IMG/VR virus record: IMGVR_UViG_3300050821_004090
Span: 1 to 35,628 of that record
Strand: one strand, 5' to 3'
Length of the DNA stretch: 35,628 nt
Source: a virus
The position numbers and the translations under genes are program-made. The notes beneath the pieces were generated by a model, which worked only from the letters and a program-made list of their open reading frames with translations, was not told where the DNA came from and searched no databases. Of the stretch, positions 4,573 through 29,972 are shown one piece after another. Within the stretch, counting starts at the first letter, position 1. Every line of letters starts with the position of its first letter.

Positions 4573-5430
4573 ATGAAGCTACGAATTGCAATTCTTGCAC
4601 CACTCATGCTTTGCGCTGCGCTCGCATTTGGGCAGGTGCTCCCTGGGCAGTCGCTCGGTGCCCCGAAGTTCTCCGCATCGTATGATGGCGGAGTTTACTA
4701 CTCGCTCGGCTACCAGTATTCGACCTCTGTCTTCGCCGGCGGGCAGTCGACGAGCGGAACCTATTCGATCCAGCTCTTTAAGCCGTTCATCTCGACGCAA
4801 GACGGACGTTCGGTCTACATCTTTTCAGGCACAAACGGCGTTGCCATTCCGCCGATTACGATTGGCTCCCCCGGATCTTCGACACAGGAAACCGTAACGC
4901 CATCAGCATCTGCGAACTGCACTGGGCCAACGCCTCCAGGAGTCTTCTGCACCCTAACTGCAACCTTTGCCAACGGACACGGCCAAGGCGATCAGATCAT
5001 TTCCGGCGATCAGGGTGTACTTGAAGCCATTGCGGATGCTTCACTGAACGGCGGCGGTATGGTCTGGTGGCAGATTGATTCCGGGCCACTGACGCTTTCT
5101 ACCGGCTCGCAGAGCACTACCATCTCAGCAGCCAAGATTCCGATCCACTCGACAGTAGTGAATGCTGTCGGGCGTGTTACCACTACGATCACCGGTTGCG
5201 CGGGTGGATGGTCACTCGGTTACTCGACGGGTGTGGAATTCACGCCGGCGGATACCACGCTAACCGCAGGCAACACGACTGACACTCTGGCAACTCAGGC
5301 GAACCTTTACAACGTGTCATTCAACGTGGCGTCAACCAACCCCATCATCTTTTGCACGACTGGTGCGGCTACTGCGGGAGCGGTTCACGCGCGCATTCAA
5401 GGTTACAAGATGGCGCCTCCGGCCTTCTAA
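4573..5430 (+). CDS. Exported-looking beta-rich virion-region protein
   Basis: The 285-residue protein starts with a clear Sec signal peptide: basic MKLR, hydrophobic IAILAPLMLCAALA, and a likely cut after FGQ. The remainder is rich in Ser, Thr, Gly and Ala with alternating hydrophobic residues, typical of beta-sandwich surface proteins, and has several cysteines (ANCTGP, VFCTL, TGCAGG, IFCTT) that could pair in an oxidising compartment. No family is recognised. It lies among packaging genes, on the same strand and close to its neighbours, so a virion or cell-surface role is likely. A signal peptide in this location is unusual for a phage. Confidence 0.75.
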   Translation: MKLRIAILAPLMLCAALAFGQVLPGQSLGAPKFSASYDGGVYYSLGYQYSTSVFAGGQSTSGTYSIQLFKPFISTQDGRSVYIFSGTNGVAIPPITIGSPGSSTQETVTPSASANCTGPTPPGVFCTLTATFANGHGQGDQIISGDQGVLEAIADASLNGGGMVWWQIDSGPLTLSTGSQSTTISAAKIPIHSTVVNAVGRVTTTITGCAGGWSLGYSTGVEFTPADTTLTAGNTTDTLATQANLYNVSFNVASTNPIIFCTTGAATAGAVHARIQGYKMAPPAF

Positions 5431-5457
5431 GCCAAACTTTCTTGAGGAGTTGAAAGC

Positions 5458-5682
5458 ATGTCGAGTCACAACGAAGCGAAGTATCCGCAGGGCCATCCAG
5501 TAACCAGCACGAAATCGCCTGAGCCACTCCCGATGCACGTTGAGGCGACAGAGAAGGCAGCGGCCTACGAGAAGGCGATCCGCCTAAAGATGGCGACTGA
5601 CGATCTGGCATGGCCTGAGGCGAAGAAAGCGGTTGACGAAGAGGCTGCACCGAAAGCAAAGGCCTCGATCAAAGTTCAGTAA
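5458..5682 (+). CDS. Small hydrophilic protein, unknown
   Basis: The 74-residue, Lys/Glu/Ala-rich product is not recognised. A good ribosome-binding site (GAGGAG, then a short gap) precedes ATG 5458. Its stop shares a base with the next start (TAATG), so the two are coupled. The C-terminal half (KAAAYEKAIRLKMATDDLAW and beyond) should be helical. Confidence 0.7.
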   Translation: MSSHNEAKYPQGHPVTSTKSPEPLPMHVEATEKAAAYEKAIRLKMATDDLAWPEAKKAVDEEAAPKAKASIKVQ

Positions 5683-5996
5683 TGCCTTTTAAGTCGAAGG
5701 CGCAGCAAAGATTTCTCCATGCTCACCCTGAAAAGATTGGCGGGGCCAACAAACTGAAAGAGTGGGATGATTCGACCGATTTCTCATCCCTACCAAACAA
5801 AGTGGCGAAGCCAAAGAAATGGATGCAGGCCGAGAGTAAGCGCGAGGAGCACGCTGGGACCAAGGGCGTCTTCTCAGCAGCCGCCGCCAGTGCTGGAAAA
5901 AGTACGCAAGAGTACGCCGAAGAGAATAAGCACGCCAGTGGCAAGAAAGGGAAACGCGCCCGAATGGCCTTGATGTACATGGGTGCCAAGCACTAA
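5682..5996 (+). CDS. Small basic phage protein of the 'FKSKAQ' type
   Basis: The 104-residue protein opens MPFKSKAQQRFLHAHPEKI and continues with a Trp-Asp segment, a form I recognise from many small phage proteins near terminase and portal genes (motif F-K-S-K-A-Q-x-R-F-L). Their function is unknown as far as I know. The C-terminal half is rich in Lys and Ala. It is coupled to both neighbours by one-base stop/start overlaps (TAATG) and so belongs to one translation string reaching towards the portal gene. Confidence 0.75.
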   Translation: MPFKSKAQQRFLHAHPEKIGGANKLKEWDDSTDFSSLPNKVAKPKKWMQAESKREEHAGTKGVFSAAAASAGKSTQEYAEENKHASGKKGKRARMALMYMGAKH

Positions 5997-6421
5997 TGAG
6001 CCCAGCCTACGCACCCTCGACTGCCAGCCTTCCGATCACGCAAGTACGCCGCGGCGATCTTCCTGTACCTGTCTGGAACAACGAAAACCCGCTCACCGGG
6101 ACAAAGAGTCAAGCTGTCAACATCCAAGTCTCGGGCGGCGTGAACGATGCGGCTGGCGGAAGTTATGTAAGCATTCGCGGCACGTTCTCTGCTGCACCTG
6201 GTGCGTTCACGATTCAGGTTCAGACCGCAGACCAAGATGTTGATGCGGCCTATGTCTCGGAGAACTTCGGCGGCGCCACTCCTGGAACCATCACCACGGT
6301 CAACGCCAACAATTCTTTCAGTGTGGAACTGATCCCCATTGCTGCCCGCTTTATTCGTCTGCTGATGGTGTTGCAGAACGCAAACGCAGTCAACCTGACG
6401 GCTACCATCTCAAGGGGGTAA
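5996..6421 (+). CDS. Beta-rich virion protein candidate
   Basis: The 141-residue protein lacks a signal peptide and has the alternating pattern of a beta-sandwich (AVNIQVSGGVN, YVSIRGTFSAAPGAFTIQVQ, ARFIRLLMVLQNANAVNLTA). Small proteins of this kind near the portal are often capsid decoration or head-completion proteins, but the family is not identified. The start overlaps the preceding stop. Confidence 0.7.
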   Translation: MSPAYAPSTASLPITQVRRGDLPVPVWNNENPLTGTKSQAVNIQVSGGVNDAAGGSYVSIRGTFSAAPGAFTIQVQTADQDVDAAYVSENFGGATPGTITTVNANNSFSVELIPIAARFIRLLMVLQNANAVNLTATISRG

Positions 6422-6427
6422 CGCTCG

Positions 6428-8896
6428 TTGCCCCAAATCACCAAACCAGAGAAGATCGACCCGACAAAAGGGATGCCGGAGTATACAGAGAAGTTCGCTG
6501 CCGGCGAAACCTCTGCAGCAGAAGGCAATACCGAGTGGGGCATCAACCGCGAACGAATCCCAACTCGTTATCAAGAAGAGTTTCGCTCAATGGCGCGCAA
6601 AGTCGCGATGCGCGATATGTTTGCCAGAATTGAGGAAGTAAAGAACTCAGCCGTACGCCGTTTTGCGTGGCGCAACATGCTGGATGTGGTTTTCAGCGAA
6701 GACCAGGCAGTATGGACGCAAATCGGTGCTCCGCAGGGTCCACAGCTCAAGCACCAGGAAGACACAGGCGACGAAGAACTCCACTACCCGTTCAATATCT
6801 TCCAGCAATTCGGACGAGAGCACATTGCGATCGTGGCCGAACCTTGGAAGATTCGCATGGAAGCCACAGACCCGAGCAGTCCTGATGCCTTGCGAGTGGC
6901 ACAAGCCGCCGACGCCATGCGGGAGAACATAGAAGCCAAGAACGAACTTAAGCAGTTGCGTGTCGACGCCGCACGGCTGTCTTGGACTGATGGCAGGGTT
7001 TCACTCTACTCGCGCTGGGTCACAGACGGCGCGCGCTTTGGATACGAAGAGGAAGGACAGGAAGAGGAAACACCCGAAGGGGTTGGCGAAGGTGGCGATC
7101 CACCGAAGAAGAAGCCGCGCGAGCCCAAGGGTGGAGAACTGATCACGCCTTATGGAGTGTTGGAATGTAAAGTGCCGATCAACATGCGATCGAGTAGCGA
7201 CTTCATGTGGAGGCAGCTCTCGTATGAGATCGATCTAACTTCCGCGAAATCTATGTACCCGTGGCTGGCCGATTCGCTGCAAGGCGGCGAGCCTGGACCT
7301 GGGGAATACAACTTTGATCGCACGACCCGCCTGGCTGTAACTCAGGGCATTCGACTGATCACCGAGAGCGGCGACACAACCAAGAGTTTGCCAACATGGC
7401 AGCGGACATGGTTCCGGCCGTCCTTCTTCGCAGAGATCGAAGACGATGACGTGCGCGGCTGGTTCCAAGATAACTATCCGAACGGCGGCATGGTCGCATT
7501 TGTCGGAGACACTTACTGCGAATCGCGCGACGAATCGATGGACGATCACTGGAAAGAGGTTCATCCGCTACCCGGCGACGGCCAGGCGACGCCGGCCTGC
7601 GGCGAAATCATCATGCCAGTCCAGTATGCCGTGCTCGATATGGTAGACCTCGCAATGGAAACCTTCATGAAGGGGATTCCGGCGATCTACTGCAACAAAG
7701 ACATGGTGGATCTGCAGGCGATTTCGAAGCAGAAGGCGGGCCCAGGGGCACACTACTCTTCGAAGCAAGGACTTGAGCCTGATCAGAAGATGCAAGATAG
7801 TTTCTGGCCAGAGCCGATTCCTGAATTGTCGCAGTCGGCAATGGGGTTTCTCGAGCAGTTGTTTACGATCGTCCCGCAGTCGTTGACAGGACTTTCGTCT
7901 GCAGCGCTGGGCATGGCAAGCCCCGACAATCAGACCAAGGGCGGAATCCAGCTTCTTCAAGCAGCTTCGAAGGGTCAATCAGGTGTGGCTTGGGGCGCGT
8001 TTCGCGAGGGTTATGCGGGTTCAATGGCGCAATGTGTACGAATCGGCGCGTACTTCCGGGCGGCTGAAGCTGAGGACGGCAAGATCAAGCTAGGCAACGT
8101 GGAGATTGATCTCGAAGACCTCTTCCCTGGGAACTGGGCATGTAAGCCGGACGGTGACGAGAGCTATCCAAACACACATGCTGAACGGCATGAGGCAATC
8201 AAGGAACTAAAGGCCGACGTTGCGGCGATGCCAGCCTTGGGGCAAATGTTCTCAGCCCCAAAGAATCTTGCTCTCTTGAAAGATGACTACGGGCTAACGG
8301 ATTACGAAGTAGAAGGCGCCTCATCCTACGAAAAGCAGATGTCAGAATTGCAACAGTTGCTCGCTGAGACGCCGGTACCGAACGTGCAAGCGAAGCAGGC
8401 TTATGCAACGGCTGTATTGCAGGCTGCGGCGACTGGTCAACCTCCGCCTCCCCCGCCTCCGCCTGAAGCTTTCTTGCAGTCTTCTATTCAGCCGGGGAAG
8501 TACGATCGTGACGAATTTGAACTTGCGGCCTTAGTGGACTGGTTCAACGATCCAGAGGGGATTCAAGCAGCGCGCGACAACCCCGAAGGCTACATGAACG
8601 CCGTGCTTCACGCCGATCTACACCAAGCGAAAGTCGATCAGAAGCAGGCGAAGCAGCAACAGGCCGCGCTACTGCCCCAGATCGCACTGGAAAAGGCGAA
8701 GCATGCGCCTGCTCCGCCGAAATCTCCGTCAGAGTCGATCCAGTTCAAGGACTTGGGGCCATCTGGACAGCTTCAACTCGGAAAGCAAGCTGGTCTTGAT
8801 TTGACCGCAGACGTGGCGGCGCACATTACAGAGGACACCCTAGGCGGCGGTCAACCTCCCAAACCAGCCGCAAAGCCTCAGCCGCGCCCACAATAA
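6428..8896 (+). CDS. Portal protein
   Basis: The 822-residue protein has the size and organisation of portal proteins from short-tailed (P22-like) phages: an N-terminal helical wing, a beta-rich middle with Trp-containing segments (WSWTDGRVSLYSR-like), a long stem/crown region, and a helical C-terminal barrel ending in a Gln/Lys-rich coiled coil. A run of eight prolines lies at about residue 675, between crown and barrel. It would form the dodecameric ring through which terminase pumps DNA and to which connector proteins bind. The start is TTG 6428. Placement after terminase and before a scaffold-like gene and the capsid gene supports the call, though no single motif proves it. Confidence 0.82.
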   Translation: MPQITKPEKIDPTKGMPEYTEKFAAGETSAAEGNTEWGINRERIPTRYQEEFRSMARKVAMRDMFARIEEVKNSAVRRFAWRNMLDVVFSEDQAVWTQIGAPQGPQLKHQEDTGDEELHYPFNIFQQFGREHIAIVAEPWKIRMEATDPSSPDALRVAQAADAMRENIEAKNELKQLRVDAARLSWTDGRVSLYSRWVTDGARFGYEEEGQEEETPEGVGEGGDPPKKKPREPKGGELITPYGVLECKVPINMRSSSDFMWRQLSYEIDLTSAKSMYPWLADSLQGGEPGPGEYNFDRTTRLAVTQGIRLITESGDTTKSLPTWQRTWFRPSFFAEIEDDDVRGWFQDNYPNGGMVAFVGDTYCESRDESMDDHWKEVHPLPGDGQATPACGEIIMPVQYAVLDMVDLAMETFMKGIPAIYCNKDMVDLQAISKQKAGPGAHYSSKQGLEPDQKMQDSFWPEPIPELSQSAMGFLEQLFTIVPQSLTGLSSAALGMASPDNQTKGGIQLLQAASKGQSGVAWGAFREGYAGSMAQCVRIGAYFRAAEAEDGKIKLGNVEIDLEDLFPGNWACKPDGDESYPNTHAERHEAIKELKADVAAMPALGQMFSAPKNLALLKDDYGLTDYEVEGASSYEKQMSELQQLLAETPVPNVQAKQAYATAVLQAAATGQPPPPPPPPEAFLQSSIQPGKYDRDEFELAALVDWFNDPEGIQAARDNPEGYMNAVLHADLHQAKVDQKQAKQQQAALLPQIALEKAKHAPAPPKSPSESIQFKDLGPSGQLQLGKQAGLDLTADVAAHITEDTLGGGQPPKPAAKPQPRPQ

Positions 8897-8901
8897 GCCA
8901 A

Positions 8902-8916
8902 GTTTTATAAAGTGTC
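8902..8916 (+). promoter_or_regulatory. Late-promoter-like element, copy 3
   Basis: GTTTTATAAAGTGTC lies five bases after the portal stop and is followed directly by ATG 8917. It is the TATAAA variant. Confidence 0.68.
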
Positions 8917-10380
8917 ATGAACTTCCTTCGATCCTTCCTGCTCAATACGTTCTTTTTTGGCCCTTCTCTGTTCTTCGCATCCGGCGCTGCTCCCATTGGT
9001 GGGGGCGGTGGAGGAACAGAAGGGGGCGGCGGTGGGGCTGGTGCCGGAGAGGGCTCTGGCCCAATCGCTACATGGGGACCGCCGAAAACTGACGGAGGCG
9101 ATAAAGGTGAAGGGGGCGAAGGTGCGGGCGAGGACCGAGCAAGCGTTCACGGAGATGACGGAGCAGGTTCGGAGGTTGATGATCTCGGGGATGAATTCAG
9201 CGGAGAAGACGACGAGACTGTTGGAGATAGCGAAGAGAGCACGCAGACTTTCAAGCAGTTCCTCGACTCGATCAAAACCGGCCTCACATCCGAAGATCCG
9301 AAAGCCGCGAAGACCGCCGAGAAGCAGTTAAAGAAAATCTACGGTGAAAATCAGCAGTTTCGTGAGGCGGGATTCGAAACGCCGGAAGAAGCACGCGAAC
9401 TCACCGACCGTCTTGAAGCCATGGGTGGAATTGAGGGTATTGAGACCGAAACTGGAGAAGCCGCAACCCTCTGGAACATGCTCGGCGCGGGCGATCCAGC
9501 CATTCTCGACACGTTGCAGAAGGATCATGGCGAAGGCCTGGTCAAATTGTTCTCCCCCTACGTAGACCGCATGGCCCAAGTCGCGCCGGCGGTCTACGCG
9601 CACAAGTTTGCCCGCGTGTTCATGGCAACGATGAACGAAGCCTCAGCCGGTCAAATCTCGGCACTCGCTGCAATCAACCAGTTGATGAAAGTGGAAGGTG
9701 TACAGGACTCAGAAGCGTTCCAGCGCATTGCTGAAGTCATCAATCACATTGACGCCATCGCCAAAAAGGAGCCAACCGAGGCAATTGGCAGCGAAAAGCT
9801 CACAAAACGCGAGCGTGAACTGCAAGCAGAGAAGGCGGAACTCACAAAGCAGAAATTGGGCGGCCAGGCTGCGCCGCTTCTCAACGCTGGGGCGAAAAAC
9901 GCGATTGCGACTCGCCTGAATGGGCAAAAACTGAGTCAGCAAGCGATGAAACAGGTGATTGCTTGGACTCACGCTGAGTTTGCCAAGCTTGCCGCGAAGG
10001 ATGCGACCGCAAAACGCAATCGTGAAGCACTTTTAGAAGCTGGCGAGCATGACAAGTGGCTGCGCAACGTTAAAGCGATCTCAAAACGGCTGATGCCACT
10101 CGCTGCGAAGGCCGCACTGCGGCGTTATCGCGGAATTGCAGGGAATACTTCTACTGAAGCGGACAAACGCAAGGCAGAAGGCAGTTCCAGGCGTGAAGCA
10201 GGCGGCGGCGGCACTTCAGGCGGCACAATTCGGACGAACAAGGCGCCCGATCCAAAGATTGTTGACTGGGACCGCATGAAGATCGAAGCCAAGAAGAACG
10301 GCAAAGATGTAGAAGATATGTTCACGTTCGATCGAGCGTATTTCAAGAAAGGCGATCCGCGCCATCTGTATCGGTACTAA
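8917..10380 (+). CDS. Scaffolding-like protein with hydrophobic N-terminus
   Basis: The 487-residue protein lies between portal and major capsid protein, the standard place for a scaffold. It is acidic at first (EDDETVGDSEES), then helical with long charged coiled-coil segments (KRERELQAEKAELTKQKLGG), and ends in a basic, ordered C-terminus suited to capsid binding (AYFKKGDPRHLYRY). Scaffolds direct procapsid assembly in the cytoplasm. Oddly, residues 1-25 (NFLRSFLLNTFFFGPSLFF) are strongly hydrophobic and followed by a Gly-rich linker, like a signal or membrane anchor. No other early in-frame start removes them. The start codon touches element copy 3. The role rests on position and composition. 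Confidence 0.7.
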   Translation: MNFLRSFLLNTFFFGPSLFFASGAAPIGGGGGGTEGGGGGAGAGEGSGPIATWGPPKTDGGDKGEGGEGAGEDRASVHGDDGAGSEVDDLGDEFSGEDDETVGDSEESTQTFKQFLDSIKTGLTSEDPKAAKTAEKQLKKIYGENQQFREAGFETPEEARELTDRLEAMGGIEGIETETGEAATLWNMLGAGDPAILDTLQKDHGEGLVKLFSPYVDRMAQVAPAVYAHKFARVFMATMNEASAGQISALAAINQLMKVEGVQDSEAFQRIAEVINHIDAIAKKEPTEAIGSEKLTKRERELQAEKAELTKQKLGGQAAPLLNAGAKNAIATRLNGQKLSQQAMKQVIAWTHAEFAKLAAKDATAKRNREALLEAGEHDKWLRNVKAISKRLMPLAAKAALRRYRGIAGNTSTEADKRKAEGSSRREAGGGGTSGGTIRTNKAPDPKIVDWDRMKIEAKKNGKDVEDMFTFDRAYFKKGDPRHLYRY

Positions 10381-10553: not shown

Positions 10554-10568
10554 GTTTTATAGAGTGTC
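10554..10568 (+). promoter_or_regulatory. Late-promoter-like element, copy 4 (capsid)
   Basis: GTTTTATAGAGTGTC directly follows a stop codon, but here no start codon follows. Instead there is a leader of about 108 bases to the capsid ATG. This placement argues that the element acts in transcription rather than as a ribosome-binding signal. Confidence 0.7.
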
Positions 10569-10676: not shown

Positions 10677-12047
10677 ATGCGAATTCGTGGTTTTGAACGT
10701 TTCGATTCCCGCCCGATTGATCATTGCGTAGTTTTCGACCCTGCGGTAGTTACCGCGATTCTTTGTGCTGTCAACCCTGTCAACGCGGCGGCTTCGATCG
10801 GTGTTGAGCTTGAAGCAGTGCGCGATGCCGTCTGGCCACAATTCCAACAGGACGACACTTTCTATTCAATGGTGCCGGATAAGACGGATGAGATGGAAGT
10901 CTCTGACCGTCTGGCCCGCATTCCAATCCTCGTCTATCCCGGCTCGCAGTTCTCACAATTTGTGCCGGATGGTGCAGGACTTGGACCGGCAGGCGGCGAG
11001 AAGTACGACGATGGTGTAACCACTCCCGTCTACTTCGCGCAAGCCGTTGCAGTGACGAAGGAAGCTGAGTGGGCCACCAACAGCAAGAAGAAGTCGGTTG
11101 TCGATGTCTTCAAAGACTCTTTCAAGATCAACTTGCGGCAATTCCGTTCGAACGTCGAAGCTCTCATGGCGTCTTCGGACGGTTCCGGAACTCTAGGAAC
11201 AGTTTCGAGCGCGGCCACTGCCGGCCAGTTGACCGTTAACGTGGCGAACAACTTTCAGGCCCAGAACACTTATCAGGTCTGGTCTGCCCTTGGCGGAGTG
11301 TTCCGCGGCACGATCACCGTGCTGACCGTCGACTCGGTAAACAACATTCTGTATCTGATTGCTGCGGCTCCTCCGGGAACGACTACCGGCGATCTTCTGA
11401 TTGTCTCCGGTGCCCCGGCGGCGGCTGCAACTTCCTTGAACGGCATTCCTGCCATCAACTTCGGCTCGAATACCGGGCAGTTCTTCGGTATCCCTCGCGT
11501 GTCCTATCCGGGCATGTTGGTGACGCCGTACTACAACGCTTCCTCGGGCGGTCTGACTCCCCAAATCATTCAGATCCTCGAGTCCTACATGCAGCGCGCA
11601 ACCGGCGTGAAGACGGAAGACCTGGACGAGATTGTTGCGCATGCCAACGTGGATCAGGTTTCAGCCTGGGAGTTGCTTGGACTCGTCACCACGACCAACG
11701 TAGCAACTGCTTTCGCTCCGCAGGACTATCAGAAAGGCGGAGACACTCGCGTCGACTACCTGAAGGCGAAGCGGATCAAGACTCTTGCAGGCCGCCAGCT
11801 CGTGACCAACATTCACGCACTGCCTGCCCGCGTCGACTTGCTCTGCTTGAAGTATTGGGGACGTGTGGTGCAGAAGCCTTGCGAGTTGTTCGACATCGAC
11901 GGGATCACCGTTTTCCCCTTGTATGCGAATGATGGCAGCGTGGCTACGCAGCAAGCCTATTACTTTGTACACGGATTGCAACTTTTCACGAGCCGGGCGA
12001 GAAGCGGAGCCTATACCGATACGCTGGCCAAACCGACTGGTTTCTAA
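10677..12047 (+). CDS. Major capsid protein
   Basis: The 456-residue protein is placed after portal and scaffold, and has its own promoter-like element, leader and terminator, the usual signs of the most abundant virion protein. Sequence features fit an HK97-fold shell protein: a helical N-arm, a central insertion rich in Gly/Ala/Thr (residues about 170-260: TVSSAATAGQLTVNVANN and onward), then the beta and P-domain-like C-terminal half (ILESYMQRATGVKTEDLDEI, DYLKAKRIKTLAGRQ). I do not recognise an exact family, so the call rests on context, size and composition. The start is ATG 10677, preceded by GTGAGG. Confidence 0.85.
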   Translation: MRIRGFERFDSRPIDHCVVFDPAVVTAILCAVNPVNAAASIGVELEAVRDAVWPQFQQDDTFYSMVPDKTDEMEVSDRLARIPILVYPGSQFSQFVPDGAGLGPAGGEKYDDGVTTPVYFAQAVAVTKEAEWATNSKKKSVVDVFKDSFKINLRQFRSNVEALMASSDGSGTLGTVSSAATAGQLTVNVANNFQAQNTYQVWSALGGVFRGTITVLTVDSVNNILYLIAAAPPGTTTGDLLIVSGAPAAAATSLNGIPAINFGSNTGQFFGIPRVSYPGMLVTPYYNASSGGLTPQIIQILESYMQRATGVKTEDLDEIVAHANVDQVSAWELLGLVTTTNVATAFAPQDYQKGGDTRVDYLKAKRIKTLAGRQLVTNIHALPARVDLLCLKYWGRVVQKPCELFDIDGITVFPLYANDGSVATQQAYYFVHGLQLFTSRARSGAYTDTLAKPTGF

Positions 12048-12122: not shown

Positions 12123-12127
12123 TTTGG

Positions 12128-12142
12128 GTTTTATAAAGTGTC
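12128..12142 (+). promoter_or_regulatory. Late-promoter-like element, copy 5
   Basis: GTTTTATAAAGTGTC lies downstream of the capsid terminator and touches ATG 12143. Its position between a strong terminator and a gene is strong support for promoter function, because the genes downstream need a fresh start. Confidence 0.75.
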
Positions 12143-14574: not shown

Positions 14575-14589
14575 GTTTTATAGAGTGTC
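14575..14589 (+). promoter_or_regulatory. Late-promoter-like element, copy 6
   Basis: GTTTTATAGAGTGTC directly follows stop codon TAA (14572-14574) and touches ATG 14590 of the spike gene. It is the TATAGA variant. Confidence 0.68.
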
Positions 14590-16584
14590 ATGAAATCGAC
14601 ACTTTTGGTGTGCCTGATCGTCTTCCTATCAATCTTTTGCCTTGGGCAAGGATCTGTTTCCACAGGTGCGCCTGTAGTCGTCAACGGGCTCGGTCAACCG
14701 CTTTCCGGTGCCTCAGTCGCGATCTGCACCAGCAACCCTGGGACCACAGCGCCGCCGTGCTCAAGTCTTGCGCTTACCTATACCGACATCACGCTTGGAC
14801 ACGCTTGTACTGGCACAGCCGGCACACAGCCGCTCAATAATCAACTGAATGCGACCGTCGGCACGGGCTGCTCGAATCCTGGGCTTACGGATGGGCTGGG
14901 CAACGCCGCCGCTTTTTCGTCAGCCGGGACTTACTGGTGTCAATACTACGGGCCGACCATCACAACGAGCGTAGTGCCGTGCATCTTCCCGGCTTCCGGA
15001 ACGGGTACAGCCGCCGGCAATACAGGGCAGAAACAGGTTAAAAACCAAGCCGGTTCATTTGGTGCGGAAGCCGATTATGCCGTAGATCAGCTTACGGGCG
15101 CCACTTTCGACGCAAAAGTTGCGACTTGTGTCGCGAATCTCGGAGGCCTCGCCGGAACCTGCGATGCTACCGGCTTCACTAGCACACAAACCATCAGCGC
15201 CACGGTGATCGTGCCGGCCAATACGACCCTAAAACTCGCGCCCGTTGTCCACACCTGCAACGTAGCGGGGGCGCCTTGCATTAAACTCACCGGCCAAGGC
15301 GCGAAAGTCATCGGCACAAATATCGGCTCGACGATTTCGAGTACATCACCAAGCACAGCGACCGGATCGATCATTCGCATGGGCACGATCAACTCGTCTA
15401 CCGATGGGATCGCCATCCAGACCACGGCGGCTAGCGGCAGTTTCACGGGTTACGAAGTCGGATTTGTTACGGTTGATTTCAATAATGCGGCGAGCAACAC
15501 CGGCCGTCACTGCCTCGTTGGCTATTCCTTTTCACACTCCGAGATTCACAACTTGCAGTGTTACAACGCGGGCGTCAACGGCTTAGAGTTTGAGACGACG
15601 GCGGGTGGCTGGGGATACGACAATCATCTCCGTGATATTACCGTTTTTGCGGCCGGGAATACCGCTTTCAACTGGACGACTGTACCCGGTTCGGGTGCAT
15701 CCGATTTTGATCGCTGGTATTGTGATCGCTGCAAAGCTGTACCCACATCTTCCGATGGCAGTTTTCACAGCGTCAATTCTTTCGCGCTCAACACCGGCAC
15801 AGGTACACAGCAGACCATCGCCGATTTCTTTTTTACGAATCTGCAGACTTATGGTGTGGCTGTTGGCGGAAATGCCGGCTTCTATTTGAATCAGACCGGG
15901 ACCGGAAACCCGCCTTACATCGAGAACATTTACGTTCACGGCGAGATTGAGCAGCAGACTGGATGCGGATGCGGAACTGCGGTAAAAGTATCCAATGCCG
16001 GCGCGGCGAACAGTGTCGGCTACATCAGTCTGGACATCATCAATCAAGATACGGGGTTTTGGTTCGCGCAAAACAATTTCACTCCGACGAATATCGTCGG
16101 TTGGCGAATTCACTTTCAGCAGCAAGGCATCATTTTCCCGCCTACGACCGTGCCGGTTGCGACTACAGCTTTCCCGTATCAGGGCCTCGTCTGGAATAGT
16201 TCGACTGGAAATTACGAATGGATACTCACACCCGATGGCATCGTTCATCTGATGCGTACAGACGTGGGGCCGATCGATTGGTTAGATTTCGATCAGTCCA
16301 ACGAACGCCTTCTTGCCAAAGACAATGTAAGTTACATCGGAACACCTGGCAACATTTTCAAGTCAATGAGTGCCTACCAATTTATCTCCCCGACATCTGT
16401 GGCCTTCGCATCGCTGCCAGCCGCCGCAGCCGGAGCACAACAATATTGCAGCGATTGCCAGCCGACGGCCAACACTTGCACAGCCGCAAGCGCGGCGAAC
16501 TGCGTTTGCAAGGGCGCTGGAAGCGGCATGTGGGCGAAAGCCGAGAACTTCATGGGCAATGGTTTGAACTGGTATTGCCACTAA
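14590..16584 (+). CDS. Signal-peptide-bearing tailspike-like protein
   Basis: The 664-residue protein begins with a signal peptide (MKSTLLVCLIVFLSIFCLGQ). Residues about 28-130 form an Ig- or CNA-B-like domain (QPLSGASVAICT, then TDGLGN and AGTYWCQYYG). The middle, about 160-520, has the repeating hydrophobic pattern and GxN turns of a right-handed beta-helix, as in tailspikes and pectate-lyase-fold enzymes. The C-terminus is unusually Cys-rich (QQYCSDCQPTANTCTA, then CVCKG). Role: receptor binding or surface-glycan cleavage. Signal peptide plus many cysteines suggests it folds outside the cytoplasm, which is odd for a tail protein. It could instead be a host-surface protein carried by the prophage. 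Confidence 0.72.
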   Translation: MKSTLLVCLIVFLSIFCLGQGSVSTGAPVVVNGLGQPLSGASVAICTSNPGTTAPPCSSLALTYTDITLGHACTGTAGTQPLNNQLNATVGTGCSNPGLTDGLGNAAAFSSAGTYWCQYYGPTITTSVVPCIFPASGTGTAAGNTGQKQVKNQAGSFGAEADYAVDQLTGATFDAKVATCVANLGGLAGTCDATGFTSTQTISATVIVPANTTLKLAPVVHTCNVAGAPCIKLTGQGAKVIGTNIGSTISSTSPSTATGSIIRMGTINSSTDGIAIQTTAASGSFTGYEVGFVTVDFNNAASNTGRHCLVGYSFSHSEIHNLQCYNAGVNGLEFETTAGGWGYDNHLRDITVFAAGNTAFNWTTVPGSGASDFDRWYCDRCKAVPTSSDGSFHSVNSFALNTGTGTQQTIADFFFTNLQTYGVAVGGNAGFYLNQTGTGNPPYIENIYVHGEIEQQTGCGCGTAVKVSNAGAANSVGYISLDIINQDTGFWFAQNNFTPTNIVGWRIHFQQQGIIFPPTTVPVATTAFPYQGLVWNSSTGNYEWILTPDGIVHLMRTDVGPIDWLDFDQSNERLLAKDNVSYIGTPGNIFKSMSAYQFISPTSVAFASLPAAAAGAQQYCSDCQPTANTCTAASAANCVCKGAGSGMWAKAENFMGNGLNWYCH

Positions 16585-19500: not shown

Positions 19501-19774
19501 CAATCACCCATTCATTCCGACCGGTGCCACGTTCAATGCGGCCTTGGGGTACTGGGTGCCGAACGTAACGCCGAATCCCCTGCCAAGCTACCAGTTGAGT
19601 CAATCGATCGATCACGATCTTGAGTGGGCCTTAAATATTACTGGGAACCGCGTGTTCTTCAAGGTGCAGGTACAACCGCTGCCGGGGCAAAAGGATGCTG
19701 CTTTTAAACTCCAGCACATGATTGTCAGTGGACGCCTTGAGCAGGTCTTCCCGGTGAGAGGAGCGGTGCTCTGA
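16592..19774 (+). CDS. Large tail/spike-base structural protein
   Basis: The 1060-residue protein, without a signal peptide, starts MAQNAKDSFSKALTLFSSLY and is beta-rich throughout. Two copies of a module occur at residues about 205-262 and 272-330, each with T-PHGL-x-x-GD and a later W-x-V/F-x-V/I and S-PT-x-F/I. The C-terminal half (NKGRWITQNNGTTEPYLWPI, FWAGRQGRRVFTGG, QLPPGNAGTGIAS) resembles large tail-hub or tail-tube-base proteins of short-tailed phages such as P22 gp10-like proteins, which plug the portal channel and seat the spikes. It is the largest product of the window and overlaps the next gene by one base. Function is inferred from size, position and fold pattern. Confidence 0.7.
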   Translation: MAQNAKDSFSKALTLFSSLYQDMSPADLPEGLSPDNQDQWPLPGSTGTRPGLQRLLGAAFPNLPAIMSVADFSAPSGDFWMMSLDSLGVQRWTGVLGQAPAQINVLPGVQCKAESAFDKQWFAYYSSLIASQQAGTSFSDDYFVGVDVPRYVDGLTGITYRVTSDAPGANPIVLADIAPTVRITSINNPTGAVIVASPNGATESGSIVTIQTTTPHGLHAGDFVSIVGVGVAGYNNPVPSPWQVIATPSPTVFTYAISVTGLAPSGGGSAIGCLTQLFTSTPHGLNQGDAFTVAGTANYDNAPANPVNPPFWTVFQVISPTEISLIGIGSSGTGPGTLTVGGLSVAGPRNCVLLFVINGEITGPSVPIQFTSAGQRQFQATSVPLGPPGCTQRILAFTQAYGSTYFYLKAAKIPGIGGLPSQTSLGTIINDNVSTSILLDFSDAQLATGVNISAPGNDLFNQIVLAPCLGVIEYQQRLFWWGEINNIKNLQNCGFEGGYVAPLASAIPLGWSAVGSTGGTAGLVQSTMLATGLAYSMQSAGGLYDCMISQPAQQDYYGGPIFQPSLAYLTRIAVSTRVALTQGELVCDLYSPSLNQILAVSSRPAAGIPVTPNIYAWITMPMSNAMPAVVPSDLIVRIYLQGIDFGKTILIDEVEFINANQPVLNNQMRASYVGNPFGYDEITGIIGLDSDDSITACFKQRDYLYPLTNKGRWITQNNGTTEPYLWPISLQEEDCGCAGPNAVTVTEGVAFWAGRQGRRVFTGGSQSKLVSLEVKGYWDQINWASELFVWVATDTIERMVHFGVPIGPNAITPTADIPLSYRAVDAVYNVPDPIRQSFRGNMIALELCRKSTVWFRALNCGAMITRQLPPGNAGTGIASLFVLGGGNGLAPGVGQTFGNLYWLNVNRFSDDDYGVIGNGTGNYYITFGWWTHDTEEAIQQLGSYRKLYGYCGVYITGIGLVTITPYVDDLNHPFIPTGATFNAALGYWVPNVTPNPLPSYQLSQSIDHDLEWALNITGNRVFFKVQVQPLPGQKDAAFKLQHMIVSGRLEQVFPVRGAVL

Positions 19775-20331
19775 TGTCAGTTCCGCAGGTAAAACAGCTT
19801 CCCTACATAAAGTCGGCTGACTATCGGATCGGCGAAGCTTTTGACGATCTTATTCGCGCGCACGACAACACTTCGAAAAATCTTCAAAATGATCCAAATG
19901 GCGCGAACGTAACTCCGCCGGCGATCGGTTCGATTCAAACCAGCACCGGATCACAGACATTCACAACTAGCGGCGCAGCAACCGTGCAAGTGGGCGGGGG
20001 CGTGCATGTCGCGATTACGGACAACGGTCAGATCGGGCGGGCGGTAAATTACTTCGTTGAGTATGACGTCACGCCGAATTTCCTGAATCCTTGGGTTGAG
20101 CACCTTGGCGCGAGTCGAAACAAGATGATCTCGCTTCCGAATGGAACCTACTACATGCGGGCCTACTCGCAATATCCCGCCGGCGGGCCGCCATCGACGC
20201 CGATCACAGCGCCCGCTCCCGTGGTGATCACCAACTCGCCATTCCCGGCTCTCTTACCGTCGCAAGCTTCTGGAACTGGCAAGCCTTCAACGGGCGGAGG
20301 GCACGGCGCTGGAAAGGTAATCTCCCGCTAG
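19774..20331 (+). CDS. Fn3-like structural protein
   Basis: The 185-residue protein has a helical start (YIKSADYRIGEAFDDLIRAH) and a fibronectin-III-like beta domain (about residues 75-150: VNYFVEYDVTPNF, LPNGTYYMRAYSQYP). A Pro/Ser/Gly-rich tail follows. It overlaps the previous stop (TGATG) and its own stop supplies the first base of element copy 7, so it closes the spike unit. It could bridge the tail hub and spikes. Confidence 0.68.
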   Translation: MSVPQVKQLPYIKSADYRIGEAFDDLIRAHDNTSKNLQNDPNGANVTPPAIGSIQTSTGSQTFTTSGAATVQVGGGVHVAITDNGQIGRAVNYFVEYDVTPNFLNPWVEHLGASRNKMISLPNGTYYMRAYSQYPAGGPPSTPITAPAPVVITNSPFPALLPSQASGTGKPSTGGGHGAGKVISR

Positions 20332-20345
20332 TTTTATAGAGTGTC
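20331..20345 (+). promoter_or_regulatory. Late-promoter-like element, copy 7
   Basis: GTTTTATAGAGTGTC begins on the final base of the preceding stop codon. It is followed by one extra C and then GTG 20347, the start of the GNAT gene. In place of ATG, a GTG starts the gene at almost the same spacing as elsewhere. Confidence 0.68.
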
Positions 20346-20346
20346 C

Positions 20347-24697: not shown

Positions 24698-24712
24698 GTT
24701 TTATAGAGTGTC
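24698..24712 (+). promoter_or_regulatory. Late-promoter-like element, copy 8 (GroES-like gene)
   Basis: GTTTTATAGAGTGTC lies in an intergenic gap and is not followed by a start codon; a 44-base leader precedes ATG 24757. Together with copy 4 it separates the element from the start codon. Confidence 0.7.
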
Positions 24713-24756
24713 TGCCCCTGTGACTGACGGGGCGAAGCTCTGAAAGGAATCCAAGA
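24713..24756 (+). promoter_or_regulatory. Leader with hairpin and ribosome-binding site
   Basis: GCCCC (24714-24718) can pair with GGGGC (24729-24733). GAAAGGA then serves as ribosome-binding site before ATG 24757. Blocks CTGTGAC, GACGGGG, AGCTCT and TGAAA recur in the capsid leader at 10569-10676 in similar order. Confidence 0.5.
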
Positions 24757-25293
24757 ATGGCAAATGATAGTCACAGCATCCCAGGCGGCGGCGATTCACT
24801 CGCGAGAGGCGCTCCCAAGGTAACGTTCCCCGGATTATCGAAGTGCCCTCCGAACTGTGAGTGTGCGAGCTGCAGGCCGGACATGCACTTCGTAGCGCCC
24901 GAAGAAGCCGAGGCAATTCCCTCCGTTGTCGACAATTCGGCCATTTTTGCGGCCAAGAAGCCTTCAATCATCTACCGGGGCACACCCTTAAACGACCGCA
25001 TTCTGATCAAGCGGGTTGAGCGGGAATCCGGATCATCCATGCTGGTCATTCCAGACAGCGCGCGCGGAAAGTCGGACATGGGCATTGTGGTTAGTGTCTC
25101 GCCCTTCTCCCAGCTCGGACTTCTGCCCAACATGCTGATCCTCTTCGATAAATTCGCGGCAGTCGGCCAGGAGATTGAACTTGTCGACGAGCAGGGGATT
25201 TCTTCCGAGCACTTACTGGTGCAGGAGTGCGATGTTTTGCTGGTTCTCGAAGCCTACAAACCTCAGCAGGAGCAAGGGAATTGCGTTCAGTAA
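24757..25293 (+). CDS. GroES/Cpn10-like co-chaperonin with Cys-rich extension
   Basis: Residues about 75-166 of this 178-residue protein match GroES: TPLNDRILIKRVERE, then the mobile loop with a hydrophobic MLVI (95-98) followed by PDSARGKSDMGIVVSVSP, MLILFDKFA and VQECDVLLVLE. GroES uses such a loop to cap GroEL, so this is probably a phage partner for the host chaperonin, functionally like T4 gp31, which helps fold the capsid protein. Unlike the roughly 97-residue GroES, it has a 74-residue N-terminal extension with four clustered cysteines (C30, C34, C36, C39), perhaps a zinc site. It has its own promoter-like element and leader. The next gene overlaps its end. Confidence 0.85.
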   Translation: MANDSHSIPGGGDSLARGAPKVTFPGLSKCPPNCECASCRPDMHFVAPEEAEAIPSVVDNSAIFAAKKPSIIYRGTPLNDRILIKRVERESGSSMLVIPDSARGKSDMGIVVSVSPFSQLGLLPNMLILFDKFAAVGQEIELVDEQGISSEHLLVQECDVLLVLEAYKPQQEQGNCVQ

Positions 25294-28025
25294 AGCTCAT
25301 TGTTGTGCTGTTTTGCCTGAGTGTTTTTGCGTTCGGGCAGAGTGGCAACAATCAGAACAATCTGCCGTCCGGGGGGCCGATTCCGTTTGCAGGCGTCCCT
25401 TCGGGTAGTTGTTCTGCGACCCAGACCGCCGTCAATACGACCAATGGCGCACTTTACACCTGCAACGCTGGAAGCTGGCAGTTAGCCACGGGCTCAACCG
25501 CTCTCTCTGGAATTACGGGCGGCACGCAAGGCCAACCGATAACCGGAACATCTGGGGGCGGCGTTGGTTCCAGCCCGATCTTTCTCGACATTTCGAAACT
25601 CTCCGGGGCCGACTTCTGTCTCCAAACACAATCTGCACTAGGACAGACAACGACCTTGGTCTATCAAGGCGGCGGCTCAAGCGGTGCCACTGTGCCCTGC
25701 TCTGTAAATCCATTCGCTACCTTCCAAGGTGGATTGCTACAACTTCCATCGAGTCAGATTCTCGCGCAGACTTTATGGTCATGGGGAAACGGGAACGGGT
25801 TAGATATTAGCGGTACTGGTCGCGGCCCCTCGCCCGCGAGTAACACAGGCGCTCAGTACAACACCGTAATTGTCAGTTGCCACGGGCAGACCGGATGCAA
25901 CAGCAATTCCGTAGCGCCGACTGGCTACCAGAGCACCGGAAACCCGGCCGGAACCTACACCAATCAAGCTCTCTTCCAGGAAGGCAGTTATCCTGCGGTT
26001 GGATTTTTCGGTTCTCAGATTACTCACGCCGTCCTCGACAACCAGGGCACTCCCGGCCTGATGACCTTCTGGGATCTGAACGGCCAAGAACAATCCGGCA
26101 CGTCCTACATGATCTTTGAAGGCGCAGGTCCTTACATGCCGAATGTGGAGTTCGGCGGATGGGATACGACCGGGAACTATGGCGGCGGTTTCTTTATCGG
26201 CCACTACACTCCGGGGATTCAGAACGGGGTCAACCTCTGGAATTATGAAACGTCCTACCCTGGCACCAAGACGATTCAGGGCGCACAGGTCACGGCGGTA
26301 GGCGCGAGTGTAACCACTTGTTCCGTTGCGAATGCTCCCGCAGTCACCGGCAACATCAACGCAACGTGCAAAGCGATCACCGATGCAAATGGCGCGCTTC
26401 TGTTTGTGGACATCACAAATCCCGGCTACGGGTATACATCCGTCCCTGCGATCACTCTAAATGGCAGCGCGACGGCGACTGCAATTCCGGGCGGCGAAGG
26501 ATGCGGCGGCGGATTGCACGGCATCGCTGCGACCGGGATCACAGTTACTCAGCCGGAGAACGATAACCGCGATCCATCCAATCCGAATATCTTAGGCCAG
26601 GCTACCGTGACCCTCGCGGCGGCGCCCCCCTTCACCATCTACCCGAACATGACGTTTCGGCTCGATGGATTCGCGGCGGGCGCAACGCACGGAACCGTTT
26701 TCACGAATACATCGGCCTACGACGCAAATATTATTCTGACGGTCGCGGCGAACCAGCTTTCATTTACCTACCTCCAACCGACTCCTCCAGCAATGGCCTC
26801 CGCCGACTCGACCGGTGCTGGGACTATCACATTCGTCACGGTGCCGATGGTCTTCCTAAGCGGCGCAGACGCCTCGAACCGGGGTTTCGGCAACGGCACG
26901 ATCAACATCAATAATGGCTGTGGGAACGTCGGCACGAACAACATCAAAACGTATACGGGCTCCGCCGTCGCGGTCTCTGGCGGCGTTGCGACCTACACCA
27001 TCTCCTCGGACACAGGCGCGGCCAGCAATGCCCTGGCTGGTATTCCGTTCGTCGTTACCGGGTTTTCGAACGTCGGCAACAATACCGCGCAGAACACACA
27101 GACGTTCATTGCAACTGGTTCGACGGCGACCACGATCACGTTCACTGCGACTTCTCAGGCGGCGGAGACCCACGCCGGGACCCTGACAATAGCCTCCTTG
27201 GTCAACAATGGCGAAGCGCAGATCGGAACCGAGGTTTCTACAGGCCAAACGGAGCAAGTCGGGGATCACATCGAAGGAGCAGTTGTCGGAAACGGTGTCG
27301 GAGAAATGGGGCCCAGTCAGGGCTACATTAGTTTCGGCAACAATCCAGCGAACATCATCAACAGCGCGGCCCATCTCAGCGCACGCTATGGTATCCCGCT
27401 GTCCGCAGTCTTCATCAACGAATGCTCGGGCGGAAACTCTGGCGTCCAAGGCAACATGAAGCTGCTGACCGATGATGGAAACTTTAATATCCTCCATCGC
27501 GCCAACGGTCGCTGCATCCCGTTCTACGCTACCGATACCTCAAACGCTGCGGGCGGCGTCTTTACCCTGTCGAATCCGAATTCGGGCGCAGACGTCGTGA
27601 ACGGCGTTTCGGTCTATGCGGGCTCGATCGACATTTGGAAGGGAACTAGCGTTGGCAACGGCGTGAATATGTTCCACGCGGATTACTCGACCGGCGCCGT
27701 GAAACCGACGCTCTACCAGAGCCAAACAAACTGCGCGGTCAACTCTGCCTCGCCTGCGGTCTGCGGTTCTGCTCCGACCGGGGCCTTCGTCGTGCCGACC
27801 ACGACTGCTGCCTACACGGTGAATACAACGGCGGCGACGACTACAAGCCGAATCTTTCTCCAACCGCTCTCCTTCGCCTCGAACTTGCCTTCATCTCCGA
27901 CGTGTGTGACTCCGGCCGTGACTTCCGTTGTCACCGTCTCAGCCATCTCTAACGGGGTGTCCTTCTCGATCGCACTCCCGTCTACGACGGGGCAAACTTG
28001 CTGGCAATACTGGATCGTCAATTGA
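25281..28025 (+). CDS. Exported-looking long fibre/spike protein
   Basis: From TTG 25281 the protein has 914 residues and opens with a signal peptide (MRSVKLIVVLFCLSVFAFGQ). AGGAG lies at the right distance; starts further left would place it deep in the co-chaperonin gene. The rest is a Gly/Thr/Asn/Ala-rich beta protein. Two related modules occur at residues about 450-523 and 583-640, each with a G-F after a V/L-x-G/D, an F-x-N/A segment and I-x-x-T-A. The C-terminus (SISNGVSFSIALPSTTGQTC) looks like a compact beta cap. It is a likely tail fibre or adhesin; the signal peptide leaves open that it is placed on the host surface. Confidence 0.72.
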   Translation: MRSVKLIVVLFCLSVFAFGQSGNNQNNLPSGGPIPFAGVPSGSCSATQTAVNTTNGALYTCNAGSWQLATGSTALSGITGGTQGQPITGTSGGGVGSSPIFLDISKLSGADFCLQTQSALGQTTTLVYQGGGSSGATVPCSVNPFATFQGGLLQLPSSQILAQTLWSWGNGNGLDISGTGRGPSPASNTGAQYNTVIVSCHGQTGCNSNSVAPTGYQSTGNPAGTYTNQALFQEGSYPAVGFFGSQITHAVLDNQGTPGLMTFWDLNGQEQSGTSYMIFEGAGPYMPNVEFGGWDTTGNYGGGFFIGHYTPGIQNGVNLWNYETSYPGTKTIQGAQVTAVGASVTTCSVANAPAVTGNINATCKAITDANGALLFVDITNPGYGYTSVPAITLNGSATATAIPGGEGCGGGLHGIAATGITVTQPENDNRDPSNPNILGQATVTLAAAPPFTIYPNMTFRLDGFAAGATHGTVFTNTSAYDANIILTVAANQLSFTYLQPTPPAMASADSTGAGTITFVTVPMVFLSGADASNRGFGNGTININNGCGNVGTNNIKTYTGSAVAVSGGVATYTISSDTGAASNALAGIPFVVTGFSNVGNNTAQNTQTFIATGSTATTITFTATSQAAETHAGTLTIASLVNNGEAQIGTEVSTGQTEQVGDHIEGAVVGNGVGEMGPSQGYISFGNNPANIINSAAHLSARYGIPLSAVFINECSGGNSGVQGNMKLLTDDGNFNILHRANGRCIPFYATDTSNAAGGVFTLSNPNSGADVVNGVSVYAGSIDIWKGTSVGNGVNMFHADYSTGAVKPTLYQSQTNCAVNSASPAVCGSAPTGAFVVPTTTAAYTVNTTAATTTSRIFLQPLSFASNLPSSPTCVTPAVTSVVTVSAISNGVSFSIALPSTTGQTCWQYWIVN

Positions 28026-28033
28026 GGATCTCC

Positions 28034-28384
28034 ATGCGAAAAACTCTCTTTGTCTTTTTCTTGCTCACGGTCGCAGCCTTCGCCAACAATCCAGGCAAAC
28101 ACAGTGTCGCACTCTCCTGGACGGCTTCGACCACGACCGGAGTCACCTATAACCTCTATCGCGGATCAGCTGCGGGCGTCTGCAGCGGCACCCCGACACC
28201 CTACGCGACCGGCATCACTTCAACCACGTTCACGGACACCGCGAACCTCACGGACGGGCAGACGATTTATTACAACGTCTCTGCCGTGAAAGGGGGTGCT
28301 GAGAGTGCTTGCGACGGAGAGTTGCAAGTGCTGATACCTGTTTTACCTGCACCACCATCGGGTCTTAGTGGAACAGCCCAGTAA
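28034..28384 (+). CDS. Secreted fibronectin-III protein
   Basis: The 116-residue protein has a signal peptide (MRKTLFVFFLLTVAAFA) and one fibronectin type III domain, recognised by HSVALSWTAS, YNLYRGSAAG, TTFTDTANLTDG and IYYNVSAVKGGAESA. A short Pro-rich end follows. TGAGGA precedes ATG 28034, which is preferred over an upstream in-frame ATG (27998) lacking the signal pattern. The domain style is common in Acidobacteriota secreted proteins. It could decorate the fibre or the host surface. Confidence 0.8.
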   Translation: MRKTLFVFFLLTVAAFANNPGKHSVALSWTASTTTGVTYNLYRGSAAGVCSGTPTPYATGITSTTFTDTANLTDGQTIYYNVSAVKGGAESACDGELQVLIPVLPAPPSGLSGTAQ

Positions 28385-28393
28385 TGGAAACAC

Positions 28394-28603: not shown

Positions 28604-28825
28604 ATGGGCATCTCTCTTAACGTCGCAACGCTGATCGTGCAAGCACTGGTCGCGGTCTACGTGTACGGGCGTTTAACCGAGAGAGTCAAGACGCTCGATG
28701 ACCGAACTATTGACCATGGGCGCCGCGTAACGAATGTTGAAACCGTCTTAAACGGTACAGGCGGCCACGGGGAACGTCTCACAGCTCTAGAGGCGTGGCG
28801 GATTATCGAGAGCGAGAACAAGTGA
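28604..28825 (+). CDS. Small membrane protein, lysis cluster
   Basis: The 73-residue protein has one N-terminal membrane segment (NVATLIVQALVAVYVYG) followed by a helical hydrophilic tail (RLTERVKTLDDRTIDHGRRV). This shape matches small phage holin accessories or inner spanin-like proteins. It follows the HTH gene without a gap and its stop overlaps the next start (GTGA). Confidence 0.68.
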   Translation: MGISLNVATLIVQALVAVYVYGRLTERVKTLDDRTIDHGRRVTNVETVLNGTGGHGERLTALEAWRIIESENK

Positions 28826-29040
28826 TCTGGCGACTCACTTTCGTTCTGCTGATCCTGATCATTGCGGCTCTCGCGTCGAAGAAGCCCGTCTATGAGCTTT
28901 ACTTCGCTCCGGTGTGCATCGAGGAAATTCAGCAAACAGCCGAGACCTACTGCCACGGCCCAGATAAGCAAAACCTGACTTGTCCACACCTGAAGATGAA
29001 GGTCAAAGTCGGATGCGAAAGCTTACGAGTAGTGAAATAG
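28822..29040 (+). CDS. Small membrane protein with periplasmic Cys region
   Basis: From GTG 28822, which overlaps the previous stop by four bases, the 72-residue protein has a membrane segment (LTFVLLILIIAALAS) and a tail with cysteines in CIEEIQQTAETYC, LTCPH and VGC. The earlier frame start (28795) would remove the usual coupling. With its neighbour it could form a holin/spanin-like pair, but no family is recognised. Confidence 0.65.
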   Translation: MIWRLTFVLLILIIAALASKKPVYELYFAPVCIEEIQQTAETYCHGPDKQNLTCPHLKMKVKVGCESLRVVK

Positions 29041-29625
29041 ATGGCCGACTTTAGACAAGCCGCGGACTTCGTACTCAGGAACGAAGACGAAACCCTTGAA
29101 GGAGCAGTCACCCCGGACCCTACGGACGATGATCCCCATGCGGTCGCTCGTTTTGGGGTGAATTCGGCCAGGCATCCAGAGGCAATAAGAGAAGGTTTTT
29201 ACGAGATGGGCCGCGATGCAGCACTGATGTGGGCTGAAGACTGTTTCAAGTTCAACTACTTCTCTCCCATCGGCGGTTATCACATCGTTGTGCAGGACGT
29301 GGCTAACAAGATTTGCGATTTGGCTTTCAACACGGGAATTAACCAGGCAGTCAAGATTGCCCAGCGCGCGGTGAACTCCTGCTTGCCCAATCTGATTCCG
29401 GCCCTGAGTATTGACGGCATCGCGGGTGATCGGACCATCGGAACGATCAACGCCTGCGAGCCGGAACGCCTGCTGCCCGCCATCAAGGAAAAGGCAAAAG
29501 ACTTCTACATGATGGTTGTGGCCGCAAAACCGGACAAGCGGAAGTATCTGGTCGGCTGGCTGGCCCGCGTGGACAAAGACGCAAGCTCATTTCCCCATGA
29601 CCACGTAGCTGAAGGGAGCAGTTAA
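29041..29625 (+). CDS. GH108-type endolysin with peptidoglycan-binding domain
   Basis: The 194-residue protein resembles the GH108 lysozyme family (N-acetylmuramidase). FVLRNEDETLEG carries the probable catalytic Glu (E15) and the following DPTDDD...ARFGVNSARHP matches the family's Gly/Asp-rich loop and F/Y-G-I/V segment. A PG_binding_3-like C-terminal part follows (CDLAFNTGINQAVKIAQRAV, LSIDGIAGDRTIGTINA). It cleaves cell-wall glycan at lysis; there is no signal peptide, so a holin must release it. The start is directly after the preceding stop. It is encoded in a cluster of small membrane proteins, which supports the lysis role. Confidence 0.8.
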   Translation: MADFRQAADFVLRNEDETLEGAVTPDPTDDDPHAVARFGVNSARHPEAIREGFYEMGRDAALMWAEDCFKFNYFSPIGGYHIVVQDVANKICDLAFNTGINQAVKIAQRAVNSCLPNLIPALSIDGIAGDRTIGTINACEPERLLPAIKEKAKDFYMMVVAAKPDKRKYLVGWLARVDKDASSFPHDHVAEGSS

Positions 29626-29627
29626 GG

Positions 29628-29972
29628 ATGAAGAAAGTCTTGGGGTTGACTCTATTGTTTTGCTCACTCGCTGCGTCCGCACAGGTGAAGTGCATCGGCG
29701 TGGGCTGGCTGAAGCTGTCCAACAAGCAGTCCGATACTGTCTGGTGCAAGGACGGGAACGGCAAGGTTCTATGGGCAGTCACATATGGCGCGCAGAAGAA
29801 CCAGTTCATTCTCTACAGCACTCAGATGAATTCCTTTTTCTATGTGCCCGCGCAGCCCAATCAGCGTTACATAGGCTCGGCGGTGCGGGCGAAATCGGAC
29901 GCGTGGTACAGCATGACCAGCAGCCCTTATGAGGACGATCACCAAGTGTTCATTAATTTGGAGGGGCACTGA
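29628..29972 (+). CDS. Small exported protein, unknown
   Basis: The 114-residue protein has a signal peptide (MKKVLGLTLLFCSLAASA) with cleavage probably before QVKCIG, and a beta-rich remainder (WLKLSNKQSDTVWCKDGNGK, FFYVPAQPNQRYIGSAVRAK). Two cysteines could pair. AAGG precedes the ATG. It belongs to the lysis cluster by position and may act at the cell wall or block superinfection; neither is demonstrated. Confidence 0.72.
   Translation: MKKVLGLTLLFCSLAASAQVKCIGVGWLKLSNKQSDTVWCKDGNGKVLWAVTYGAQKNQFILYSTQMNSFFYVPAQPNQRYIGSAVRAKSDAWYSMTSSPYEDDHQVFINLEGH

Follow-up and report, generated by a model that had tools for sequence, protein, structure and literature searches.

The virus record IMGVR_UViG_3300050821_004090 in IMG/VR is a 35.6-kb DNA with a podovirus-like head and packaging module, and the whole stretch of 35,628 nucleotides was analysed here as the window. 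Five of its 36 genes begin with a Sec-type signal peptide:

4573 to 5430, + strand: signal-peptide protein of 285 residues, probable capsid decoration protein; signal peptide 4573-4626, cleavage between MKLRIAILAPLMLCAALA and FGQ; 4 cysteines in the mature protein
14590 to 16584, + strand: tailspike-type protein of 664 residues; signal peptide 14590-14646, cleavage read by eye between MKSTLLVCLIVFLSIFCLG (ending IFCLG) and QGS; 22 cysteines in the mature protein
25281 to 28025, + strand: second spike or fibre of 914 residues, TTG start; signal peptide 25281-25337, cleavage between MRSVKLIVVLFCLSVFAFG (ending VFAFG) and QSG; 16 cysteines in the mature protein
28034 to 28384, + strand: protein of 116 residues with a fibronectin-III-like domain and a weak PHROG virion structural match; signal peptide 28034-28084, cleavage between MRKTLFVFFLLTVAAFA and NNP; 2 cysteines
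29628 to 29972, + strand: protein of 114 residues; signal peptide 29628-29681, cleavage between MKKVLGLTLLFCSLAASA and QVK; 2 cysteines

Frames and N-termini were taken from direct translation, and signal peptides were called by a home-made set of rules for a charged n-region, a hydrophobic core and small residues at -3 and -1, all of which the five products satisfy. A first-pass annotation of this DNA had placed signal peptides at the same five starts, and both the calls and the conservation described below bear it out; its coordinate of 25281 is also correct, with a TTG start there and GTA as the codon at 25290. That annotation had added a sixth hydrophobic N-terminus, on the scaffold-position protein (8917 to 10380, + strand). 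The N-terminus, MNFLRSFLLNTFFFGPSLFFASG, is indeed hydrophobic, but it was not called as a signal peptide, the protein has no cysteines, and the scaffold proteins of relatives lack a hydrophobic N-terminus of this kind; it was excluded from the exported set. The product of the gene at 30893 was called too, yet it resembles a plain membrane anchor. The signal peptide ends, read from the sequence, do not match a lipobox.

The same rules called 5 of 157 spurious open reading frames of the window (3%), with weaker calls, against 5 of the 36 genes (Fisher p=0.02), and none of the 45 genes in the virion modules of P22, SU10 and K1F. Statistics drawn from the window only are modest (p=0.02 and 0.01); the case for the signal peptides rests on their conservation in relatives.

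A spike with a signal peptide in acidobacterial relatives

Relatives were reached through an acidobacterial integrase match, a class-wide terminase search and a capsid alignment, and prophage-like regions from 22 genomes were extracted and compared. Their terminase, portal and capsid proteins are about 30% identical to those of the window. Fourteen of the 22 regions hold, inside the virion module, a spike with the N-terminal domain of the 14590 protein, which is CarboxypepD_reg-like with an invariant cysteine pair (about 14647-15000 in the window). All 14 of these syntenic elements have a hydrophobic spike leader, which in most of them ends in A-X-A, and Q(G/S)(S/T)RKD or a near variant comes next. 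The leaders vary from spike to spike while the sequence after the cut is almost invariant, and few stretches of the protein are as well conserved as its predicted mature N-terminus, QGSRKDD. With the search widened, a leader was present in 25 of 25 readable genome loci (these include the 14) and in 42 of 42 complete IMG/VR copies; the caller accepted 18 and 30 of these, respectively, and the remainder were judged by eye. One alignment with a row translated in the wrong frame (L077) was left out of account. The notion that the signal peptides arise by chance or from wrong start codons can appeal to the 3% of calls among out-of-frame reading frames, but an invariant cleavage context in more than 40 loci refutes it, and we give it practically no weight. 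At the spike gene of the window, the ATG at 14590 gains support as the start from a copy of a repeated motif, GTTTTATAGAGTGTC (14575 to 14589, + strand, one of seven exact copies), which ends directly upstream of it.

The position of this gene is constant too. The signal-peptide spike lies between homologues of the genes at 13801 and 16592, and the elements listed contain no other long gene outside the core set. A profile search of 299 genomes found the N-terminal domain in 43 and the capsid in 40, in many cases on one contig and a few kb apart; a distant contig (G312) lacks a signal-peptide spike. The spike diverges fast, with 31-49% identity for most pairs compared with 76-99% for the capsid, and the bodies of the 14590 and 25281 spikes have almost no relatives among the 299 genomes.

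Domain matches in the relatives point to a tailspike. One spike (in genome G046) matches the rhamnogalacturonase/pectate-lyase family Pect-lyase_RHGA_epim at 45.7 bits (cut-off 27), along with PHROG tail-spike profiles. Another (in G152) ends in a K1-lyase_C match that, at 22.6 bits, falls short of the cut-off of 27; the C-terminal 130 or so residues of the 25281 product match this same region. These spikes resemble podovirus tailspikes such as P22 gp9, the K1F endosialidase and pectate-lyase-like depolymerases in the enzymatic or beta-helix domains of the relatives, in their fast evolution and in their place in the virion module.

The first-pass annotation had offered as one explanation that these are lysogenic-conversion proteins of the host surface, interleaved with virion genes; they would then be expressed from the prophage for the benefit of the lysogen. 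The two tyrosine recombinases (integrases) encoded in the window imply that the phage is or was temperate. We nevertheless regard such a role as very unlikely, given the gene positions, the tailspike domains, the fixed slot linked to the capsid genes, the upstream motif that 14590 shares with structural genes, and the likeness of the 4573 product to cement proteins.

Cysteine-rich spikes and a decoration-like protein

The exported spikes depart from those of P22 and K1F, which lack a signal peptide and contain 8 cysteines each, in ways that suggest folding outside the cytoplasm. They have a cleavable signal peptide (as predicted), mostly 12-32 cysteines when mature, and the CarboxypepD_reg-like N-terminal domain, whose cysteine pair is found in 49 of 49 spikes. 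Of 23 clusters of mature spikes (60% identity), 21 have an even number of cysteines (p=3.3e-5); p-values of this kind are indicative, because the sequences are related rather than independent. No such parity is seen in other proteins of the same elements, with even counts in 7 of 21 portals, 9 of 20 large terminase subunits and 8 of 17 members of the 16592 family, and the capsid and scaffold families contain only about 0.1% cysteine. When signal-peptide proteins from the window and from five phage contigs are pooled, the count is even in 18 of 20 (p=2e-4). The cysteine-richness remarked on in the first-pass annotation is real, with 22 residues in the mature 14590 product. These patterns are most simply read as spikes crossing the inner membrane and becoming disulfide-bonded.

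It might be proposed instead that there are two pools of each protein, one that evades export and is incorporated into particles inside the cytoplasm, its N-terminus uncut, and another that is exported. Alternative in-frame start codons near some of the signal peptides would permit this, but so many cysteines, in even number, would make folding difficult under the reducing conditions of the cytoplasm, and the strong conservation of QGSRKDD directly after the cleavage site also counts against it. We consider a divided pool improbable.

The 4573 family supplies a second kind of exported protein. Its members are 36-49% identical in four contigs, the signal peptide is kept in five other contigs, and a hydrophobic leader is present in all six aligned members. 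Longer phage contigs show this set of exported proteins again. In one contig (G308) the 4573 relative lies immediately after the terminase gene, and the contig also encodes two spikes and two small signal-peptide proteins; four others (G309, G310, G311 and G317) encode one to several signal-peptide proteins each. A structural model of the 4573 product is confident only in its C-terminal half, a beta domain of the phage cement/decoration type. The best matches of the model in the PDB are the Pam1 capsid asymmetric unit, the R4C baseplate-tail complex and the GP4 capsid (8h89_J), with the Pam1 capsid (7eel_H) matched at a Foldseek probability of 1.00, E 5.5e-4, and TM-scores of 0.29 to the query and 0.52 to the target. 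The KHP40 cement protein (7dou) stands lower among the matches. The 4573 protein is thus a probable capsid cement or decoration protein, as judged from its modelled fold, although unlike those of Pam1, GP4 and KHP40 it has a Sec signal peptide and cysteines, and identity to them is only 12-18%.

Of the two smaller proteins, 28034 has a homologue with a signal peptide in one of these phage contigs (G309). A search for relatives of 29628 found none; its gene adjoins that of an endolysin and it is perhaps a lysis accessory.

A proposed assembly in two compartments

The genes that would build the DNA-filled core have no signal peptide, and an endolysin gene lies downstream:

1987 to 3780, + strand: terminase large subunit (phrog_979)
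6428 to 8896, + strand: portal protein (weak SU10-type match)
10677 to 12047, + strand: major capsid protein (phrog_14242)
16592 to 19774, + strand: core virion protein of 1060 residues (phrog_3287), by its position and N-terminal motif of the nozzle/stabilisation type
29041: endolysin, neighbour of 29628

Signal peptides are found only on outer parts, namely the spikes and the probable decoration protein, and are absent from capsid, portal, scaffold and nozzle. We lean toward a model in which the core is made in the cytoplasm and Sec-exported spikes and decoration protein are added at lysis. Capsid, portal, scaffold, adaptors and nozzle would form the DNA-filled core in the cytoplasm, while the outer, last-added parts (spikes 14590 and 25281, the probable decoration protein 4573 and perhaps the fibronectin-III protein 28034) would pass through Sec. 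Their signal peptides would be removed (at A-X-A followed by Q in most relatives), their disulfides would form in the periplasm, and once lysis proteins had opened the cell, completed cores would encounter these outer parts and acquire them. The components of this model differ in strength. The sequences give strong support, as a prediction, to export, removal of the signal peptide and oxidative folding; the placing of the exported proteins on the outside of the virion is supported by gene position, domains and fold; and the processing, the disulfides and the joining at lysis are steps that we infer.

The chief alternative is that these proteins are exported and disulfide-bonded and never enter the particle, acting instead late in infection as periplasmic, surface or released glycan-degrading enzymes, for example in stripping receptors from the producing cell and debris or in superinfection exclusion. 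Signal peptides and cysteine parity would be expected equally in this case, and bacteria do employ tailspike-fold enzymes that are their own, WceF of Pantoea being one (PMC7949094). CarboxypepD_reg-like N-terminal domains, such as the spike has, are also common in bacterial secreted proteins. Arguing the other way are the fixed slot in the virion module across deep divergence, the lack of any other receptor-binding candidate in the elements listed, and the cement-like fold of 4573, for which no use apart from the particle is apparent. What chiefly favours assembly in two compartments over a purely cellular role is that parts that look external are exported and parts that contact DNA or scaffold are not; a role as enzymes outside the particle is possible but distinctly less likely. 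The first-pass annotation's other suggestion, that part of the particle matures outside the cytoplasm, fits better, with the restriction that only outer parts carry signal peptides.

Late addition of outer parts is physically reasonable, since decoration proteins such as Dec can bind finished heads in vitro (PMC7602432) and the long tail fibres of T4 are attached at the end of assembly (PMC3185693). The coat proteins of filamentous phages provide a precedent for virion proteins whose leader is cleaved after membrane insertion (PMC3185693), but those phages are extruded from a membrane-anchored state and have no tailed head, whereas the window represents a tailed double-stranded DNA phage with lysis genes. 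Pantoea WceF and the chimeric fibres of Bdellovibrio are reported to have a phage-type spike or fibre fold that works outside the bacterial cytoplasm (PMC7949094, PMC10769870); they are cellular proteins, while genes of the window type lie among phage terminase, capsid and lysis genes. Another exported fibre-like protein was seen in an Acidobacteriaceae genome (L002:8373-9668, + strand), with a signal peptide and, by eye, an end like the peptidase-S74 intramolecular chaperone. In phage P22, tailspikes can be added in vitro to tailless heads.

Several points weigh against the proposed assembly. No example of a Sec-exported tailspike in a tailed phage was found in a literature search to which subscription journals were largely closed, and outer parts that joined only after lysis would become dilute unless plentiful or retained. 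The signal peptides were assigned with home-made rules and in some cases by eye, and cysteine parity in the window proves little by itself, as 9 of 13 cysteine-containing proteins without a signal peptide also have even counts. The 4573 model is modest (pLDDT 59, with the low TM-score to the query given above), and the AF2 model of 14590 (pLDDT 39) is too poor for a fold search. The 14590 product itself gave no profile match to a beta-helix or known spike domain, and its N-terminal domain profile matched the head-binding domain of the Pam1 tailspike at E=0.13, too weak to be used. If the model is true, the consequences are considerable. Tailed phages are taken to assemble wholly in the cytoplasm, so that a conserved Sec route for the outer parts would be a new assembly logic; it would explain disulfide-stabilised spikes in a soil phage. 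It would also change the search for receptor-binding proteins in metagenomes of viruses, since a gene with a signal peptide is usually assigned to the host there.

Probable host, chromosomal elements and a repeated motif

The host is most likely an acidobacterium: one of the window's recombinases shares 54% identity with a protein from an Acidobacteriaceae bin, and 45 of 299 genomes from the class of that bin hold terminase relatives. Among isolated phages, tblastn found no relative of the window spike, capsid or portal, and its sole match to the N-terminal domain was a weak one in Nocardia phage P3.1. IMG/VR pattern scans with a single protein each (capsid, spike or terminase) gave no match.

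Many of the acidobacterial elements sit at one chromosomal locus, with a DsbA/DsbC-type gene (Pfam DSBA, DsbC_N), NadE and usually IDH downstream, in 13 genomes:

Genomes: G007, G016, G066, G104, G128, G136, G144, G152, G201, G219, G249, G264, and G255 by its flank
Loci: L057, L060, L074, L078, L081, L083, L088, L091, L128, L130, L132, L138, L142

Distances for the capsid and the 16592 protein track those for NadE and IDH (Mantel r 0.84-0.87, p=0.0005), with r of 0.92 between the two host genes themselves. Within one family, 32 of 61 genomes have the capsid, mostly in single copy. The elements keep packaging, head, spike and lysis genes, the core genes and an SLT transglycosylase having been found, and no integrase was seen among the subset of genes scanned in the G066 element. 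An ordinary-prophage reading was dropped because of the shared locus, and the elements are candidates for a domesticated phage passed on vertically, for example a gene transfer agent; no earlier report of one in this phylum was found in the literature searched. That a tailed-phage lineage of Acidobacteriota has a two-compartment virion joined only at lysis, a design kept in a vertically inherited element of this sort, is a proposition on which we are evenly divided. The host gene adjoining the element (L081:9948-10856, - strand, and its counterparts) encodes a DsbA/DsbC-type thiol oxidoreductase with a signal peptide of its own; its place beside a disulfide-rich exported spike may be coincidence.

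The motif upstream of the 14590 spike, GTTTTATARAGTGTC, occurs in seven exact copies in the window, four of which end directly before an ATG:

4169-4183, 8902-8916, 10554-10568, 12128-12142, 14575-14589, 20331-20345 and 24698-24712, all + strand

Only 0.7 sites would be expected even with up to 3 mismatches. The motif looks like a phage late promoter that gives nearly leaderless messages; an IMG/VR scan for it gave no match. The phage genome also encodes a GroES-like protein (24757-25293, + strand; phrog_3188, E 7e-4). The protein encoded at 447-1121 (+ strand) matches Sigma70_r2 weakly (E 0.008) and has, by eye, a sigma-4-like C-terminus; it may be the factor recognising the motif.

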